Source of the DNA: Prochlorococcus sp. AG-347-G22
GTDB lineage: Bacteria > Cyanobacteriota > Cyanobacteriia > PCC-6307 > Cyanobiaceae
DNA: 64,000 nucleotides
Direction of reading: 5' to 3'
Assembly (NCBI GenBank): GCA_003281635.1
Contig: QCBK01000003.1
Coordinates: 37,461 to 101,460, forward strand
Shown: piece by piece, positions 1,933-7,036 of the stretch
Position numbering within the stretch: the first letter of the stretch is position 1
How the letters are laid out: every line of letters starts with the position of its first letter
Notes under the pieces: model-generated
The model's input: the letters and a program-made list of their open reading frames with translations, nothing else
Told to the model about the DNA's origin: nothing
The model's database searches: none
Program-made: the position numbers and the translations under genes

Positions 1933-2178
1933 TTAAGCAACTAAAGTAGAATCTTCGTTATCAGCAGAAATTCTTATTCTCTCTTCCAACTTAGGGCCAT
2001 ACAACTCATTTCCCCAGATTTCTACTCTTGAGTCATTTGGGGCCATAAAAGTAAGAATATCAGTGGGGAATAAAACTCTCTCCAAGAAAAAATTTGATGG
2101 ACCAATACATCTCAATACAACCATCCTACATCCTTCATTTTTGTAAGAAAACTCAACCATCCCTAAACAGCAAAACAT
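1933..2178 (-). CDS. DUF1830 family protein
   Basis: 81 residues. The central stretch LRCIGPSNFFLERVLFPTDI followed by LTFMAPNDSRVEIWG matches the DUF1830 pattern (a Cys-bearing strand, then FERVVFP, then an acidic ELEI/VEIW strand) found almost only in cyanobacteria. Function is unknown. No signal peptide or membrane segment. ATG at 2178 is the only sensible start. It stands alone between small membrane peptides and the glycerate kinase gene. Confidence 0.75.
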   Translation of the reverse strand: MFCCLGMVEFSYKNEGCRMVVLRCIGPSNFFLERVLFPTDILTFMAPNDSRVEIWGNELYGPKLEERIRISADNEDSTLVA

Positions 2179-2249: not shown

Positions 2250-3194
2250 TTAGAAATTTAATCCAGCCTCAACAATATTTCTTTCCTGATTAATTAATAA
2301 AAGAGCATAAGAATTTATAAAATCAAAACTTTTATGAGGAATAGAGACATTAAGCATTCTCAAAAAATTAGATAATTTTTCATCTTTAAGGGCTTTGCCT
2401 TTCTGTAATAACATTTCTTTTTCTTGATTTGTTTTCCACTTATTCATATATTCAATCTTTAAGGGTTTTAAGTGCCAAATGTTGTCTATTAAACTCCAAA
2501 TATCTAAGTATTCTTTTAGATTATTTTGAATGGTTAATACATAAGAAGATTCATCAAGACTCAAACTTGTTGTATTTATAGATCTATCATCTACGTCAAA
2601 TGAGAAAGGTTTTATTCCCAAAAACCATCCCTCAATAATTAATAAATCAGGATTATCTAATCTCCAATGAGATCTATCACCTAAACCATTTCTTAAGGAT
2701 TTATCAAAAACTGGTACATTTAATTCTCCATTAATCTTCCAATTTAGTAATTTTTCATGCATTAATTTTACTGAGTGACTTCCGGGAAAACCTCTTGATA
2801 CATTCCAAGGGTTATTCTTTATTGCTAATATCATTTCATCTGATGGCAGATAAAAATCATCAATTGAAATAACAGCGATTTTGAAGTCTAATTTTAATGA
2901 TATGGCTTCAAGCCATTTACCCAGTGTTGTTTTACCTGTACCAGGTAAAGCTGAAATCCCAATTATTTTTCTATCAGAAAAACAATTATAAAATTTATAA
3001 GCCTGAGATAAAAGAGGCAAAGCTAAACCCCAAATCCAATCATCATTTACTTTATTATTCCAATATTGATCAATTGAAAGAATATTTCTTTGATTATTCC
3101 AGAAATTGAACCAGTCATCCAAGGATTCCCAACCAATATCTATAATTAATTTTTCAAATTTATCAAGATTAAAATTAATATCTAAATCTTTCAT
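2250..3194 (-). CDS. D-glycerate 3-kinase (GLYK family)
   Basis: Predicted to phosphorylate D-glycerate to 3-phosphoglycerate with ATP, in the cytosol. The P-loop SALPGTGKTT is at residues 81-90, followed by ISIDDFYLP and NPWNVSRGFPGSHS, then DRSHWR and LLIIEGWFLG; these are characteristic of GLYK-type kinases related to uridine kinase/PRK. Length 314 is normal. In photorespiration this enzyme ends the glycolate route; here it is the last gene of a minus-strand cluster encoding glucosylglycerate enzymes, with 4 bases between it and the phosphatase gene. That position suggests it also recovers the glycerate released when glucosylglycerate is broken down (inference). Confidence 0.88.
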   Translation of the reverse strand: MKDLDINFNLDKFEKLIIDIGWESLDDWFNFWNNQRNILSIDQYWNNKVNDDWIWGLALPLLSQAYKFYNCFSDRKIIGISALPGTGKTTLGKWLEAISLKLDFKIAVISIDDFYLPSDEMILAIKNNPWNVSRGFPGSHSVKLMHEKLLNWKINGELNVPVFDKSLRNGLGDRSHWRLDNPDLLIIEGWFLGIKPFSFDVDDRSINTTSLSLDESSYVLTIQNNLKEYLDIWSLIDNIWHLKPLKIEYMNKWKTNQEKEMLLQKGKALKDEKLSNFLRMLNVSIPHKSFDFINSYALLLINQERNIVEAGLNF

Positions 3195-3198
3195 CTTT

Positions 3199-3996
3199 CT
3201 AACTTAGTTTTCGCTTATTTATCAATTTATTGATTTCATTTTTCCAACCATATCCATTTGGTTCAGAAGCTAAAATAAATTCAAAGCCTTTTAATTGATC
3301 TAGTAAATTAACATTAGGGCCATCCATACCAGGAATAACTATTTTAATATCTGAGTTTAAAAGTAGAGGCAAATCATTTGGAGAATCGCCCAAACCTATA
3401 ATTTCAATATTTCGAATATTCGAATATTCTTTAAGCGCATTTATTGCTTTACCTTTATTCGATTTTGTAGATAATAAGTGACTCATCCTATTACCCCTAA
3501 ATATATCAACATTGAACTTTTTACAACAGATATTAATTTTTTCTTCTAGGTAACTTGGCGGATTTAAAAAAGGCATGCTCCAATGTCTATCACGCATTAA
3601 ATTCAATGAGTTACCTTCTAAACCAGTTAGCTCAGTCGCCTCTTGATCTGTGAGATTATTAAGAGGAATAAGTTTGTAATCAATATCTTTAGAAATGAGA
3701 TTTAGGATATCTTCAAGATATTCGTATTTAATTCCAAGAATAATTTCTCCATTAACTCTTTTAAGAGATTCACCATATATTGCAGCACCATTCTCAACAA
3801 TAAAAGGATCCGTCAAGTTAAGTTCCTTTCTTATAACTTTTACTTCAGAAGCGGTTTTACTTGTACATAGAATTACAGGTATAGATAATTTTTGTAGTTT
3901 TTTTATAGTATCTCTGGCAGGTGATAAATCATAGGAGTGATCCATTAAAGTACCATCTACATCACTTACTACCCATATAGAAGAATTTTGTATCAT
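3199..3996 (-). CDS. gpgP: HAD phosphatase, glucosyl-3-phosphoglycerate phosphatase (MPGP-type)
   Basis: HAD-superfamily hydrolase with motif I SDVDGTLMDH near residue 11, motif II ILCTSKTASEV, and motif IV region IIGLGDSPNDLPLL. The overall sequence is of the mannosyl-3-phosphoglycerate phosphatase (YedP/MpgP) type. With GpgS nearby, the likely substrate is glucosyl-3-phosphoglycerate, giving glucosylglycerate. I chose the ATG at 3996, two bases past the stop of the upstream gene; a longer form starting at 4017 would overlap that gene by 19 bases and adds seven residues before the conserved fold. Middle gene of a tight three-gene run. Confidence 0.85.
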   Translation of the reverse strand: MIQNSSIWVVSDVDGTLMDHSYDLSPARDTIKKLQKLSIPVILCTSKTASEVKVIRKELNLTDPFIVENGAAIYGESLKRVNGEIILGIKYEYLEDILNLISKDIDYKLIPLNNLTDQEATELTGLEGNSLNLMRDRHWSMPFLNPPSYLEEKINICCKKFNVDIFRGNRMSHLLSTKSNKGKAINALKEYSNIRNIEIIGLGDSPNDLPLLLNSDIKIVIPGMDGPNVNLLDQLKGFEFILASEPNGYGWKNEINKLINKRKLS

Positions 3997-3998
3997 TT

Positions 3999-5759
3999 TT
4001 ATAAAGCACCAAGCCAAACCACTTGAAAAGGATTAAGACTAATATTTTTGCAATTGTATTTAATTGATGTTAAAAAATCTTGTGTATTAAAATCATTATC
4101 TATTTTTTTTGGTAAATCATTATCATTCAATTGATAATTAATTTTATTTTCAGTCATATTATGGATTGCAAAAACAGAATCAGGACCTTTACCCCTTTTG
4201 ATAACAACGATATCACTTCTGCCTTTAGATAAACATTTCATTTCCGAACAAGGGTGAAATTGCTTTAATTGTGATCTTATATCCATTGCATTTCTTAAGT
4301 ACTTTAAGTTTTTATTGGCATTTGATTCGGCATTATTTAAGACAGACAAAAGATTGTCCATTTTAAATTTTTCTCTATTGAGGTCTCTCCTTTGACCTGT
4401 CATAGAGAAACTTTTGATATCATTTTCTGAAGCAAGTAATGCTGGCAAATAAAATGCAGGAACACCTTTCAGAGCCATTACTATTAACTGAGTCAAAATA
4501 AATCTCTCAAACTGGAATCTGTTAGAATCTCTACTAGAATCTTCCATTGCGCTCCACCAACTAATATTCAATTCATACGGTTTATCATCTCCATTTGATA
4601 AACGTCTATGACTTACTAGTCCTCCTCTTTTTTCACAATTAATCAATAGATTTTTAATTCTCTGCTCATTCATTAAACCCTCTAGAGCTCTTAAACCAAC
4701 GCCATCATGCGATGCAGTGAAATTAAATAGAGTGGTATTCTCAGGTAATACTGGCCAATCAAAAATCCATGAGTTTAGAATATCAGCTCTTGAAGTAATA
4801 ATTGCCTCTAGAAGAAGAGGCGGCAAAGGGAAATTATATGCCATATGGGCTTCATCATCGGGAATAAGGTAAGACAAATTTTCTTTCTGAGGAACATTAG
4901 TTTCTGTTATTAAAACTCCTTCTTCTAAAAGATCATTTAAAAGAACTCTTAAAATTTTTACAATTGAATGTGCTTTTGACAAATGTAAGCATGTTGTCCC
5001 TGATTCCTTCCAAATAAAACCTACAGCATCAAGCCTGAACCATTTAATTCCATTGGATAAATAAGTAATAATTAAATTTAAGAACTCAATAGTCATTTTT
5101 GGATTATGCCAATTCAAATCAATTTGATCTGGACCAAAAGTAGTCCAAACTTGTTTAGGGCCTTCGTCAGTATTTATTTGTGAAAACAAGGAGGAACTTC
5201 TGGGTCTAACTACATTTGACCAGTCAAGATTTTGTTTGGGTGAAAAAACGTTTGATATCCCTGGTTCTTCAGATTTAATAAATTGTTGAACCCATGTGTG
5301 AGAGGATGAAACATGGTTTAGTACCAAATCAGCCATCAAATCATGATTTTTTGAAATACTTTTGAGATCATTCCATCCACCAAATTTTTCTTCTAGAGAA
5401 TCATAACTAGAGACTGCGAAACCACCATCGCTTGTGGATTTCAAGAAAGGAAGAATATGTACAACTTTAGAAAGATTGCCAAAATGTTTTCTTAACAAAT
5501 CCTTAAGAGTAATTAATGTTGCCTCACCTTTTTTATAAACACTATCAGCATAAGTTATCAAAACCGAATGAGATTCGTTCCACCTTTCTTTATCTCTTAT
5601 TTCTTCATAAGCAAATTTCTCTGAGAAATTATCTAAAATCTGTAATAATTGATTTGAAATAAAATTAATTTCTTCTGTAGTATTATTTGAATAAATTGTT
5701 TTCAACAATTTATAAATTTTTAATCTATCTAATTTTTTCTCTGAATCAATTTGCTTCAC
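3999..5759 (-). CDS. GH13_18 glycoside phosphorylase, probable glucosylglycerate phosphorylase (sucrose-phosphorylase-like)
   Basis: 586 residues of the GH13 sucrose phosphorylase-like subfamily. The catalytic triad is visible: nucleophile D244 in RLDAVGF, acid/base E286 in LITETN, and transition-state Asp D352 in ASHDGVG. Related enzymes phosphorolyse sucrose, glucosylglycerol, sucrose-6-phosphate or glucosylglycerate, releasing glucose-1-phosphate. The genomic context (phosphatase and glycerate kinase downstream, GpgS divergent) favours glucosylglycerate, with glycerate as the other product; this is inference and the acceptor cannot be read from sequence alone. Annotation as sucrose phosphorylase would be the main alternative. 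First gene of the minus-strand operon. Confidence 0.82.
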   Translation of the reverse strand: MKQIDSEKKLDRLKIYKLLKTIYSNNTTEEINFISNQLLQILDNFSEKFAYEEIRDKERWNESHSVLITYADSVYKKGEATLITLKDLLRKHFGNLSKVVHILPFLKSTSDGGFAVSSYDSLEEKFGGWNDLKSISKNHDLMADLVLNHVSSSHTWVQQFIKSEEPGISNVFSPKQNLDWSNVVRPRSSSLFSQINTDEGPKQVWTTFGPDQIDLNWHNPKMTIEFLNLIITYLSNGIKWFRLDAVGFIWKESGTTCLHLSKAHSIVKILRVLLNDLLEEGVLITETNVPQKENLSYLIPDDEAHMAYNFPLPPLLLEAIITSRADILNSWIFDWPVLPENTTLFNFTASHDGVGLRALEGLMNEQRIKNLLINCEKRGGLVSHRRLSNGDDKPYELNISWWSAMEDSSRDSNRFQFERFILTQLIVMALKGVPAFYLPALLASENDIKSFSMTGQRRDLNREKFKMDNLLSVLNNAESNANKNLKYLRNAMDIRSQLKQFHPCSEMKCLSKGRSDIVVIKRGKGPDSVFAIHNMTENKINYQLNDNDLPKKIDNDFNTQDFLTSIKYNCKNISLNPFQVVWLGAL

Positions 5760-5776
5760 TTTGAAAAAATCATCGA

Positions 5777-5788
5777 AGTATTAATACT
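5777..5788. promoter_or_regulatory. 12-bp palindrome in shared divergent promoter
   Basis: AGTATTAATACT is a perfect palindrome in the middle of the 50-base gap between the divergent phosphorylase gene (start 5759) and gpgS (start 5810). It may be an operator serving both directions or simply overlapping -10 elements: TACTAT at 5785-5790 would suit gpgS. Function is inferred from position only. Confidence 0.4.
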
Positions 5789-5809
5789 ATTCTGCACATC
5801 AATTAGAAA

Positions 5810-7036
5810 ATGGACTTTCAACAAGGGTTAATCACAACAATACATGAATATGGAGTTACAAGAAATTTACTTAAAGTATTAAACAAAAGTCTTAAAAAAA
5901 GATCTACCAGCATTCTTATACCTTGCTTATATGAAGAATTTGAGCGTCCTGCATTAAAAGACATAAGAGAAGTTTTAAAAAACCTAACGGGCTTAAATGA
6001 ATTAGTGATTGCCCTCTCTGCAAAAACAGTTGAGCAAGTTAAGGCAGCGAAATCATTTTTTGACTCAATGCCATTCCCGGTTCACGTTCAATGGACTAAC
6101 TCTCCCTCTGTAATAGAGCTGTTAAAAAGCCAAGAAAAAAATGGATTGGAACTTTTAGGGACTCCTGGTAAAGGATGGGCTGTCTGGCAAGGCATAGGAA
6201 TTGCGACTAGAAAATCAGAGGTGGTTGCTCTTTTTGATGCTGATATAAGAACTTTTAGTCCTTTGTACCCTTCAAGAATGATACTTCCACTTCTAGATGA
6301 ATCATATGGGATATCATATGTAAAGGCTTTTTACAGCAGGTTATCCTTAGAGACCAATCAATTGCAAGGTAGAGCAACAAGATTATTTGTGGGTCCCTTA
6401 TTGGCAAGTCTTGAGCAGTTAGTAGGGAAGGGTCCTTTTTTGCAATATCTTCAATCATTTAGATATCCATTAGCAGGTGAGTTTGCCTTCACTAAAGACC
6501 TTGCTATGAATTTACGAATTCCTTGTGACTGGGGTTTAGAGATAGGTTTATTATCAGAGGTTTATAGAAATGTTAGAACCTCCAAAATAGCTCAGGTAGA
6601 CCTAGGTTTGTTTGATCATAAACATAAGAATATTGGTAATTCATCTAAAGAAGGATTGCAAAAAATGTGTACAGAAATACTCTCAAGTGTTTTAAGAGGT
6701 CTTATGGAACATCAAGCAGAGACCTTAACTAGTACTCAACTAGCAACCTTAGAAGTTCTTTACAAAAGAGTTGGGGAAGATCGTGTAAAACAATTTGGAT
6801 TAGATTCAGCTGTTAATCAACTTCCATACGATAGGCATGAAGAAGAGCTATCAGTACAGAAATTTGCGAAACTATTAAGACCGGCTACAGAAGATTACTT
6901 AGCATGCCCTACGACACAGCAGCTACCAAGTTGGTCAAGAGTTCTATCTTGTGAAAACAAACTGCAAGAAGATTTGGCAATTGCTGGGTCACAAGATATA
7001 AAGACAACTGAAAAAGAATTAATTAAAAACTTCTAA
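5810..7036 (+). CDS. gpgS: glucosyl-3-phosphoglycerate synthase (GT81)
   Basis: Cytosolic glycosyltransferase that joins glucose from a nucleotide sugar (ADP- or UDP-glucose) to 3-phosphoglycerate, the first step of glucosylglycerate synthesis. The 408-residue protein has the GT-A fold start [15 protein letters not shown], the loop [16 protein letters not shown] and the metal-binding DADIR at residues 143-147, then [12 protein letters not shown] and [11 protein letters not shown] as in GpgS proteins. It faces away from the phosphorylase/phosphatase/kinase operon across a 50-base promoter region and overlaps the convergent ureC stop by 3-4 bases. Glucosylglycerate is a compatible solute in marine picocyanobacteria, especially under nitrogen shortage. 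Confidence 0.92.

Follow-up and report, generated by a model that had tools for sequence, protein, structure and literature searches.

A predicted cassette for making and recycling glucosylglycerate in Prochlorococcus, with a likely glycerate kinase that has a different address in other genera

Few phototrophs are as abundant as Prochlorococcus. We analysed a 64,000-nucleotide stretch from Prochlorococcus sp. AG-347-G22 (contig QCBK01000003.1, positions 37,461 to 101,460; hereafter the window) and consider it likely, judging from sequence and gene distribution, that four genes at positions 2250-7036 form a cassette that makes and recycles glucosylglycerate, and that this cassette consists of an old three-gene core joined later by a D-glycerate kinase with a salvage role in the window's genus. 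Glucosylglycerate is named among the main solutes of Prochlorococcus (PMC9606707, PMC11631117). A first-pass annotation of the window had read a complete synthesis-and-recycling loop from the same four genes; that reading is correct in outline and mostly already in print, for a glucosylglycerate metabolism operon of strain NATL2A that would turn the solute back into glucose-1-phosphate and 3-phosphoglycerate and is altered in dark-tolerant cells (PMC11631117). The same make-and-recycle pathway is predicted for the window and for NATL2A, where it was proposed from transcripts (PMC11631117). What is added here is that the kinase accompanying the three-gene core has a different address elsewhere and that, in high-light Prochlorococcus, the solute itself probably supplies this kinase.

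The genes for the kinase, the phosphatase and the phosphorylase follow each other on the (-) strand and the synthase gene lies opposite on the (+) strand, all within 2250-7036, so that the unit is made of three co-directional genes and one divergent gene and is not a single four-gene operon. From left to right, these are a predicted plant-type (class III) D-glycerate 3-kinase (2250..3194), which is the last gene of the run, a predicted HAD-type glucosyl-3-phosphoglycerate phosphatase (GpgP, 3199..3996), a predicted GH13_18 glucosylglycerate phosphorylase (GGaP, 3999..5759, GTG start) and a predicted glucosyl-3-phosphoglycerate synthase (GpgS, 5810..7036). The gaps are 4 bp between kinase and phosphatase and 2 bp between phosphatase and phosphorylase, the latter counted from a phosphatase start at ATG 3996, and 50 bp separate the divergent phosphorylase and GpgS starts; the gene order and tight spacing described earlier are thus confirmed in the window sequence. 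Because the match to the phosphatase family model NF001215 opens at residue 8 of the mechanical ORF (3199-4017), the ATG at 3996 is the likely start. GpgS and GpgP would convert 3-phosphoglycerate and activated glucose to glucosylglycerate. GGaP would use phosphate to cleave this solute to glucose-1-phosphate and D-glycerate, and D-glycerate would be phosphorylated back to 3-phosphoglycerate by the kinase. We infer all reactions and substrates of the four enzymes from gene content, gene order, signatures and co-occurrence. Because all four genes are present at a coverage of more than 70% in 76 of the 80 loci that we took from relatives (the best 80 of 165; 75 titled Prochlorococcus, including MIT 9401, and five titled Synechococcaceae) and the other four loci are truncated at contig ends, the arrangement is far beyond chance.

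The phosphorylase has an intact GH13 catalytic triad (D244, E286 and D352 in the 586-aa frame), as had been claimed. Phosphorylases acting on glucosylglycerate are distinguished from sucrose phosphorylase by a (T/S)ETN motif and by a loop-A Glu at a position that is Gln in most other clades, and substitution of N275 or E383 severely lowers the activity of the Meiothermus silvanus GGaP (PMC7178133). Both marks are found in the window phosphorylase, TETN at residues 285-288 of the acid/base strand and E396 within PYE (394-396), and N288 and E396 correspond to N275 and E383 of the M. silvanus enzyme at a constant offset of 13. The motifs RLDA, TETN, HDG and PYE are kept in all 159 aligned ORFs scoring above 250 bits, Escherichia coli YcjM included; these are 159 locus rows with 144 distinct sequences, some genomes being represented twice. 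Both GGaP signatures are missing from five aligned solved chains of sucrose, sucrose-6-phosphate and glucosylglycerol phosphorylases, in which the loop-A position is Gln. Strict GH13_18 GGaPs include those of M. silvanus, S. thermophila and E. coli YcjM (PMC7178133), and the window phosphorylase has TETN and the loop-A Glu in common with them, although its identity to YcjM, which is annotated as glucosylglycerate phosphorylase, is just 33% (over 533 aa, 324 bits). The two published signatures and the closeness to YcjM support the assignment of the window phosphorylase to the glucosylglycerate type, as the first-pass annotation had proposed. We met no assay of a cyanobacterial GGaP in the literature passages on glucosylglycerate genes. 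One further genome of the window's genus (G169, C4:149728-151482) has a GGaP with an internal TGA.

For the synthesis pair, GpgS scores 401.7 bits over residues 1-399 against NF040724 (GpgS_Meth, cut-off 700) and 103 against PRK13915 (cut-off 262), and it matches solved GpgS chains (PDB 7p5l, E 7.6e-17). The phosphatase exceeds the cut-offs of two models, with 558.2 bits against NF001215 mannosyl-3-phosphoglycerate phosphatase (cut-off 488) and 306.1 bits against TIGR01486 (cut-off 164.75), scores that do not decide between a glucosyl and a mannosyl substrate. Klaehn (2010) is said to have found glucosylglycerate in Prochlorococcus. Synechococcus sp. PCC 7002 also makes glucosylglycerate (PMC11009771). 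In a published gene list, gpgP is given as PMM0515/NATL1_05721 and gpgS as PMM0962/NATL1_09131 (PMC9606707 Table 4). The former is far by number from gpgS, although the cassette phosphatase is expected next to it, and the listed gene may be another HAD gene.

We searched 200 genomes of the window's family for GGaP, GpgS, GpgP and the kinase. GGaP matches split cleanly, with 103 genomes at E <= 8.3e-159 and the next match at 1.8e-34, and GpgS and GpgP were found in every one of the 103 GGaP-positive genomes. The only other genome with GpgS and GpgP is G055, which has no GGaP. Stops occur inside the match in the GGaP row of G169 and in ten of the 103 GpgS rows, where we take them to mark the point at which a shorter gene ends. 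We did not count G014 (broken fragment), G060 (piece of 58 residues) or G011, G042 and G177 (distant matches) as GpgS carriers, and a distant GpgP match in G177 was likewise excluded. The same three-gene core is the gpgS-gmgG-gpgP cluster listed for marine Synechococcus (PMC7522525, PMC9361551), which was reported from every marine isolate, from 9 of 17 brackish ones and from none of the freshwater ones (PMC9361551) and corresponds to SYNW2434-2436 in WH8102 (PMC2874817). GGaP genes in general are often accompanied by genes for glycerate kinase, GpgS or GpgP (PMC7178133).

In other cyanobacterial families, 30 genomes were GGaP-positive (E below 1e-90), and 20 of their loci were examined. GpgS is divergent from GGaP in ten of the 20 and GpgP follows in nine of these, the tenth (L197) being cut by a contig end; the remaining ten have GGaP without GpgS or GpgP nearby (L185, L186, L187, L189, L190, L194, L195, L196, L198 and L201). 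No kinase match was found in any of the 20 stretches, of which L197 stops short of the place in question. Because the divergent GpgS/GGaP layout recurs in these families, the core of GpgS facing GGaP-GpgP is probably an old unit. Carriage of the cassette by cyanophages was considered and rejected; a scan with GGaP and GpgS as queries returned no viral relative, GpgP not being among the queries, and the one kinase match lies on an apparent chimera. This is a 4.7-kb IMG/VR contig (L083:2132-4234) on which an in-frame 700-aa ORF fuses a protein that we take to be phage baseplate-like to the C-terminal ~82 residues of GpgP, with the start of the kinase coming next, and it is probably a chimeric assembly.

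The kinase has a different history. Its best PDB matches are 7xpc (D-glycerate-3-kinase, E 1.2e-17) and 6ckg (D-glycerate 3-kinase, 1.8e-16), it has no match in its own genome except itself, and it is predicted by homology to be a class III D-glycerate 3-kinase, for which 3-phosphoglycerate is the product as a family trait (PMC10970406). Published work places class III (GLYK) kinases of the same sequence family in Prochlorococcus and in the majority of Synechococcus (PMC2063504, PMC10970406), their function in Prochlorococcus being described as unclear (PMC2063504). The window kinase differs from other members of the class in having its home in an osmolyte cassette and in belonging to a genus in which a photorespiratory supply is not recognised. 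Class I kinases (PF02595) were found in two of 101 family genomes and in three of 15 checked individually, and class II kinases (MOFRL) in none of the 101. All three PF02595 positives (G026, G069, G121) are among the six genomes without the window-type kinase, whereas the other three of these six (G007, G053, G185) have no PF02595 either, and neither do the seven genomes with only a weak kinase match. Kinase classes thus exclude each other in the part of the 200 genomes that was tested.

Kinase matches are present in 194 of the 200 family genomes, whether or not the cassette is present; 187 are at E 1.2e-21 or better, and seven weak ones (1e-14 to 8e-8) may be other kinases. The kinase directly follows GpgP on the same strand in all 49 GGaP-positive genomes of six genera (g1, g2, g7, g17, g22, g32), the five besides the window's genus being called Prochlorococcus-like from genome size and tree position. 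In the rest of the 103 GGaP-positive genomes, unlike in the window, it shares the contig but is at least 150 kb distant in 33 genomes, it is on a different contig in 16 (for which adjacency across a contig break was not excluded one by one), and for five its place is not listed. The kinase is thus linked to the other three genes in only 49 of the 98 GGaP-positive genomes in which it could be placed, which is not a conserved four-gene unit. Since 194 genomes hold the kinase and its place beside the cassette is confined to six genera, 'complete cassette', the wording of the first-pass annotation, describes one lineage. The co-occurrence of all four genes that it had proposed as a check holds for GpgS and GpgP, while the kinase co-occurs unspecifically.

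Among 20 unlinked kinase loci, all from outside the Prochlorococcus-like group, 17 share a DUF565-kinase-FtsH neighbourhood (g3, g19, g31, g20, g4, g13, g15), with recJ near in 16, and this address occurs in genomes with and without the cassette. In three g6 loci (L224, L225, L226), the kinase is at neither the cassette nor the DUF565-FtsH neighbourhood. In trees of 39 kinase sequences rooted on g4 and g20, the cassette-linked kinases fall inside the native picocyanobacterial kinases, grouped with those of g15 (support 0.97, UFBoot 97), a genus that keeps the old kinase address. Because the cassette-linked copies lie inside the native kinases, relocation is likelier than import. Cassette-linked and relic kinases form one group in both trees (19 of 19); with supports of 0.17 and 49 we did not rely on this monophyly but only on the larger group that takes in g15. 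The kinase was probably not part of the cassette originally and is probably an old cyanobacterial gene that moved into the core in the stem of the Prochlorococcus-like lineage. Judged from titles and abstract openings in mostly open literature, we found no published account of the relocation or of the missing glycerate source described next.

In the window's genus, glucosylglycerate is probably the main supplier of this kinase. We sampled 26 genomes of the window's genus for enzymes that make glycerate, and none has a tartronate semialdehyde reductase over the cut-off of 341. Each has one weak match (48-54 bits) to a frame 474-496 aa long; the frame of the window's genome encodes 6-phosphogluconate dehydrogenase, and those of the other genomes are of like size. 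In 22 of the 26, strong 2-hydroxyacid dehydrogenase matches are limited to a frame 528-537 aa long, which is SerA where checked (L207); among these 22, the window's own incomplete genome (1.33 Mb, 85% complete) and G388 lack SerA as well, and G377 has a contig-end piece only. GlcD was not used as a test of photorespiration; none of the 26 genomes is over its cut-off, but only two of 14 controls pass and the matches are partial. Strain MIT9312 is reported to have no 2-phosphoglycolate (2PG) phosphatase and no complete 2PG-to-glyoxylate route, and tartronate semialdehyde reductase candidates are named only in Alteromonas and two Synechococcus (PMC9723591). Among the routes tested, breakdown of glucosylglycerate is the sole recognisable source of D-glycerate in the window's genus. 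Because no enzyme making D-glycerate from photorespiratory intermediates was recognised there, the kinase of this genus probably serves mainly glucosylglycerate salvage, which favours, for this genus, the earlier proposal of a role in the cycle and not only in photorespiration.

Several observations weigh against parts of this account. GpgS is under its NCBIfam cut-off, the GpgP match is named for the mannosyl substrate, and the branch that unites the linked kinases has low support (0.17 and 49). For tartronate semialdehyde reductase, the cut-off is so strict that only one of 14 control genomes passes it, and our argument therefore rests on the lack of a better match and not on the cut-off. 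Hydroxypyruvate could also be turned into glycerate by SerA, as a side activity, or by an enzyme that escaped recognition. Four of the 26 genomes (G382, G384, G386, G387) hold one or two more 2-hydroxyacid dehydrogenases of full length, and our count is of strong matches, weaker partial ones existing in other frames. The kinase has also been kept after loss of the cassette in relatives. In L145 the kinase is intact and only a broken remnant of GpgS lies next to it, L143:5497-9246 (from G055) keeps GpgS, GpgP and the kinase with GGaP cut to about its last 147 residues, and L144, L146, L148 and L149 have the kinase without the other three genes. Because it outlives the cassette, the kinase probably has another job in those lineages, one without glucosylglycerate and plausibly in photorespiration.

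The L143 locus is a naturally occurring case in which recycling is lost and synthesis retained. Family genomes with the kinase but without the cassette include G010, G013, G014, G015, G029, G030, G033 and G044. The kinases of L144, L146, L148 and L149 group with those of L145 and L143 in the kinase tree with weak support. G198 was rejected as a further case of cassette loss; it has no GGaP, GpgS or GpgP match, but a contig end falls right at the start of its kinase. At L149:7513-14956, the lone kinase lies beside two amylase-family genes, together with genes for an FGGY carbohydrate kinase and for an FAD oxidoreductase of the glycerol-3-phosphate type. The two GH13 genes were rejected as GGaP, one having a weak 29% partial match and the other none, and both are other amylase-family genes.

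These relics bear on the strongest alternative, according to which the kinase is a plain photorespiratory glycerate kinase, the cassette proper has three genes, and the place of the kinase in it is accidental or reflects shared transcription. Its presence in 194 genomes against 103 with the cassette, its retention after cassette decay and its DUF565-FtsH address independent of the cassette all speak for this alternative. We nevertheless regard it as unlikely, since each of the 49 GGaP-positive genomes of six genera has the kinase beside the cassette and in the same direction, since the window's genus lacks a recognised tartronate semialdehyde reductase (0/26) and mostly lacks strong 2-hydroxyacid dehydrogenases beyond SerA (22/26), and since MIT9312 is reported to be without a complete 2PG-to-glyoxylate route (PMC9723591). 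A more specific scenario that connects relocation and salvage is possible and is offered tentatively: an ancestral photorespiratory kinase gave up its place near recJ and FtsH when the cassette captured it at the Prochlorococcus-like root, and the loss of enzymes making glycerate from photorespiration in high-light Prochlorococcus then turned it into a dedicated salvage enzyme, with glucosylglycerate as the sole D-glycerate source of the cell. If this is true, glucosylglycerate would be a closed, nitrogen-free buffer of carbon and phosphate.

The recycling arm might instead serve uptake of glucosylglycerate from neighbouring cells and not turnover of the cell's own pool. In dark-tolerant NATL2A, recycling and transporter transcripts are up and synthesis transcripts are down (PMC11631117), and in a g32 genome (L155:5557-6330) a TauE/SafE-type gene convergent with GpgS, possibly the transporter of PMC11631117, occupies the place that ureC has in the window. 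The NATL2A operon adjoins a transporter gene (PMC11631117), whereas the window cassette is flanked by ureC, next to GpgS, and by a DUF1830 gene, with no adjacent transporter, and the same cells carry the synthesis genes; we consider uptake as the main purpose improbable. That the phosphorylase acts mainly on sucrose, sucrose-6-phosphate or glucosylglycerol, or is a hydrolase (gmgG, glucosyl(mannosyl)glycerate glucosidase), is very improbable. In its favour are the best curated match, TIGR03852 sucrose phosphorylase, which however reaches only 161.5 bits, about half of its cut-off of 334.4, source annotations such as 'putative sucrose phosphorylase' and the gmgG label of older cyanobacterial annotation (PMC9361551, PMC7522525); against it are TETN and PYE in 159 of 159 ORFs, the closeness to YcjM and the presence of GpgS and GpgP alongside GGaP in 103 of 103 genomes.

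Of the features around the cassette, the DUF1830 gene (1933..2178, (-) strand; PF08865, E 2.2e-18) follows the kinase in the same orientation as its immediate neighbour and is present in 78 of the 80 named loci, the remaining two being interrupted by contig ends. At the other side, the 3' end of GpgS shares 4 bp with the end of the convergent ureC. The divergent intergenic stretch (5760..5809, no strand) contains an AT-rich 12-bp palindrome, AGTATTAATACT, and is conserved in 109 extracted loci. A shared operator in this gap was rejected; no more than 44 of the 109 loci have an exact copy of the palindrome, and its conservation is no better than that of the flanks.

A solute that can be converted to glucose-1-phosphate and 3-phosphoglycerate is a carbon reserve besides an osmolyte. 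The different address of the kinase in other genera, together with the unrecognised glycerate makers, makes the purpose of the Prochlorococcus glycerate kinase directly testable. It also calls for caution in the use of this gene, which is unsafe as a marker of glycolate recycling in Prochlorococcus cells.

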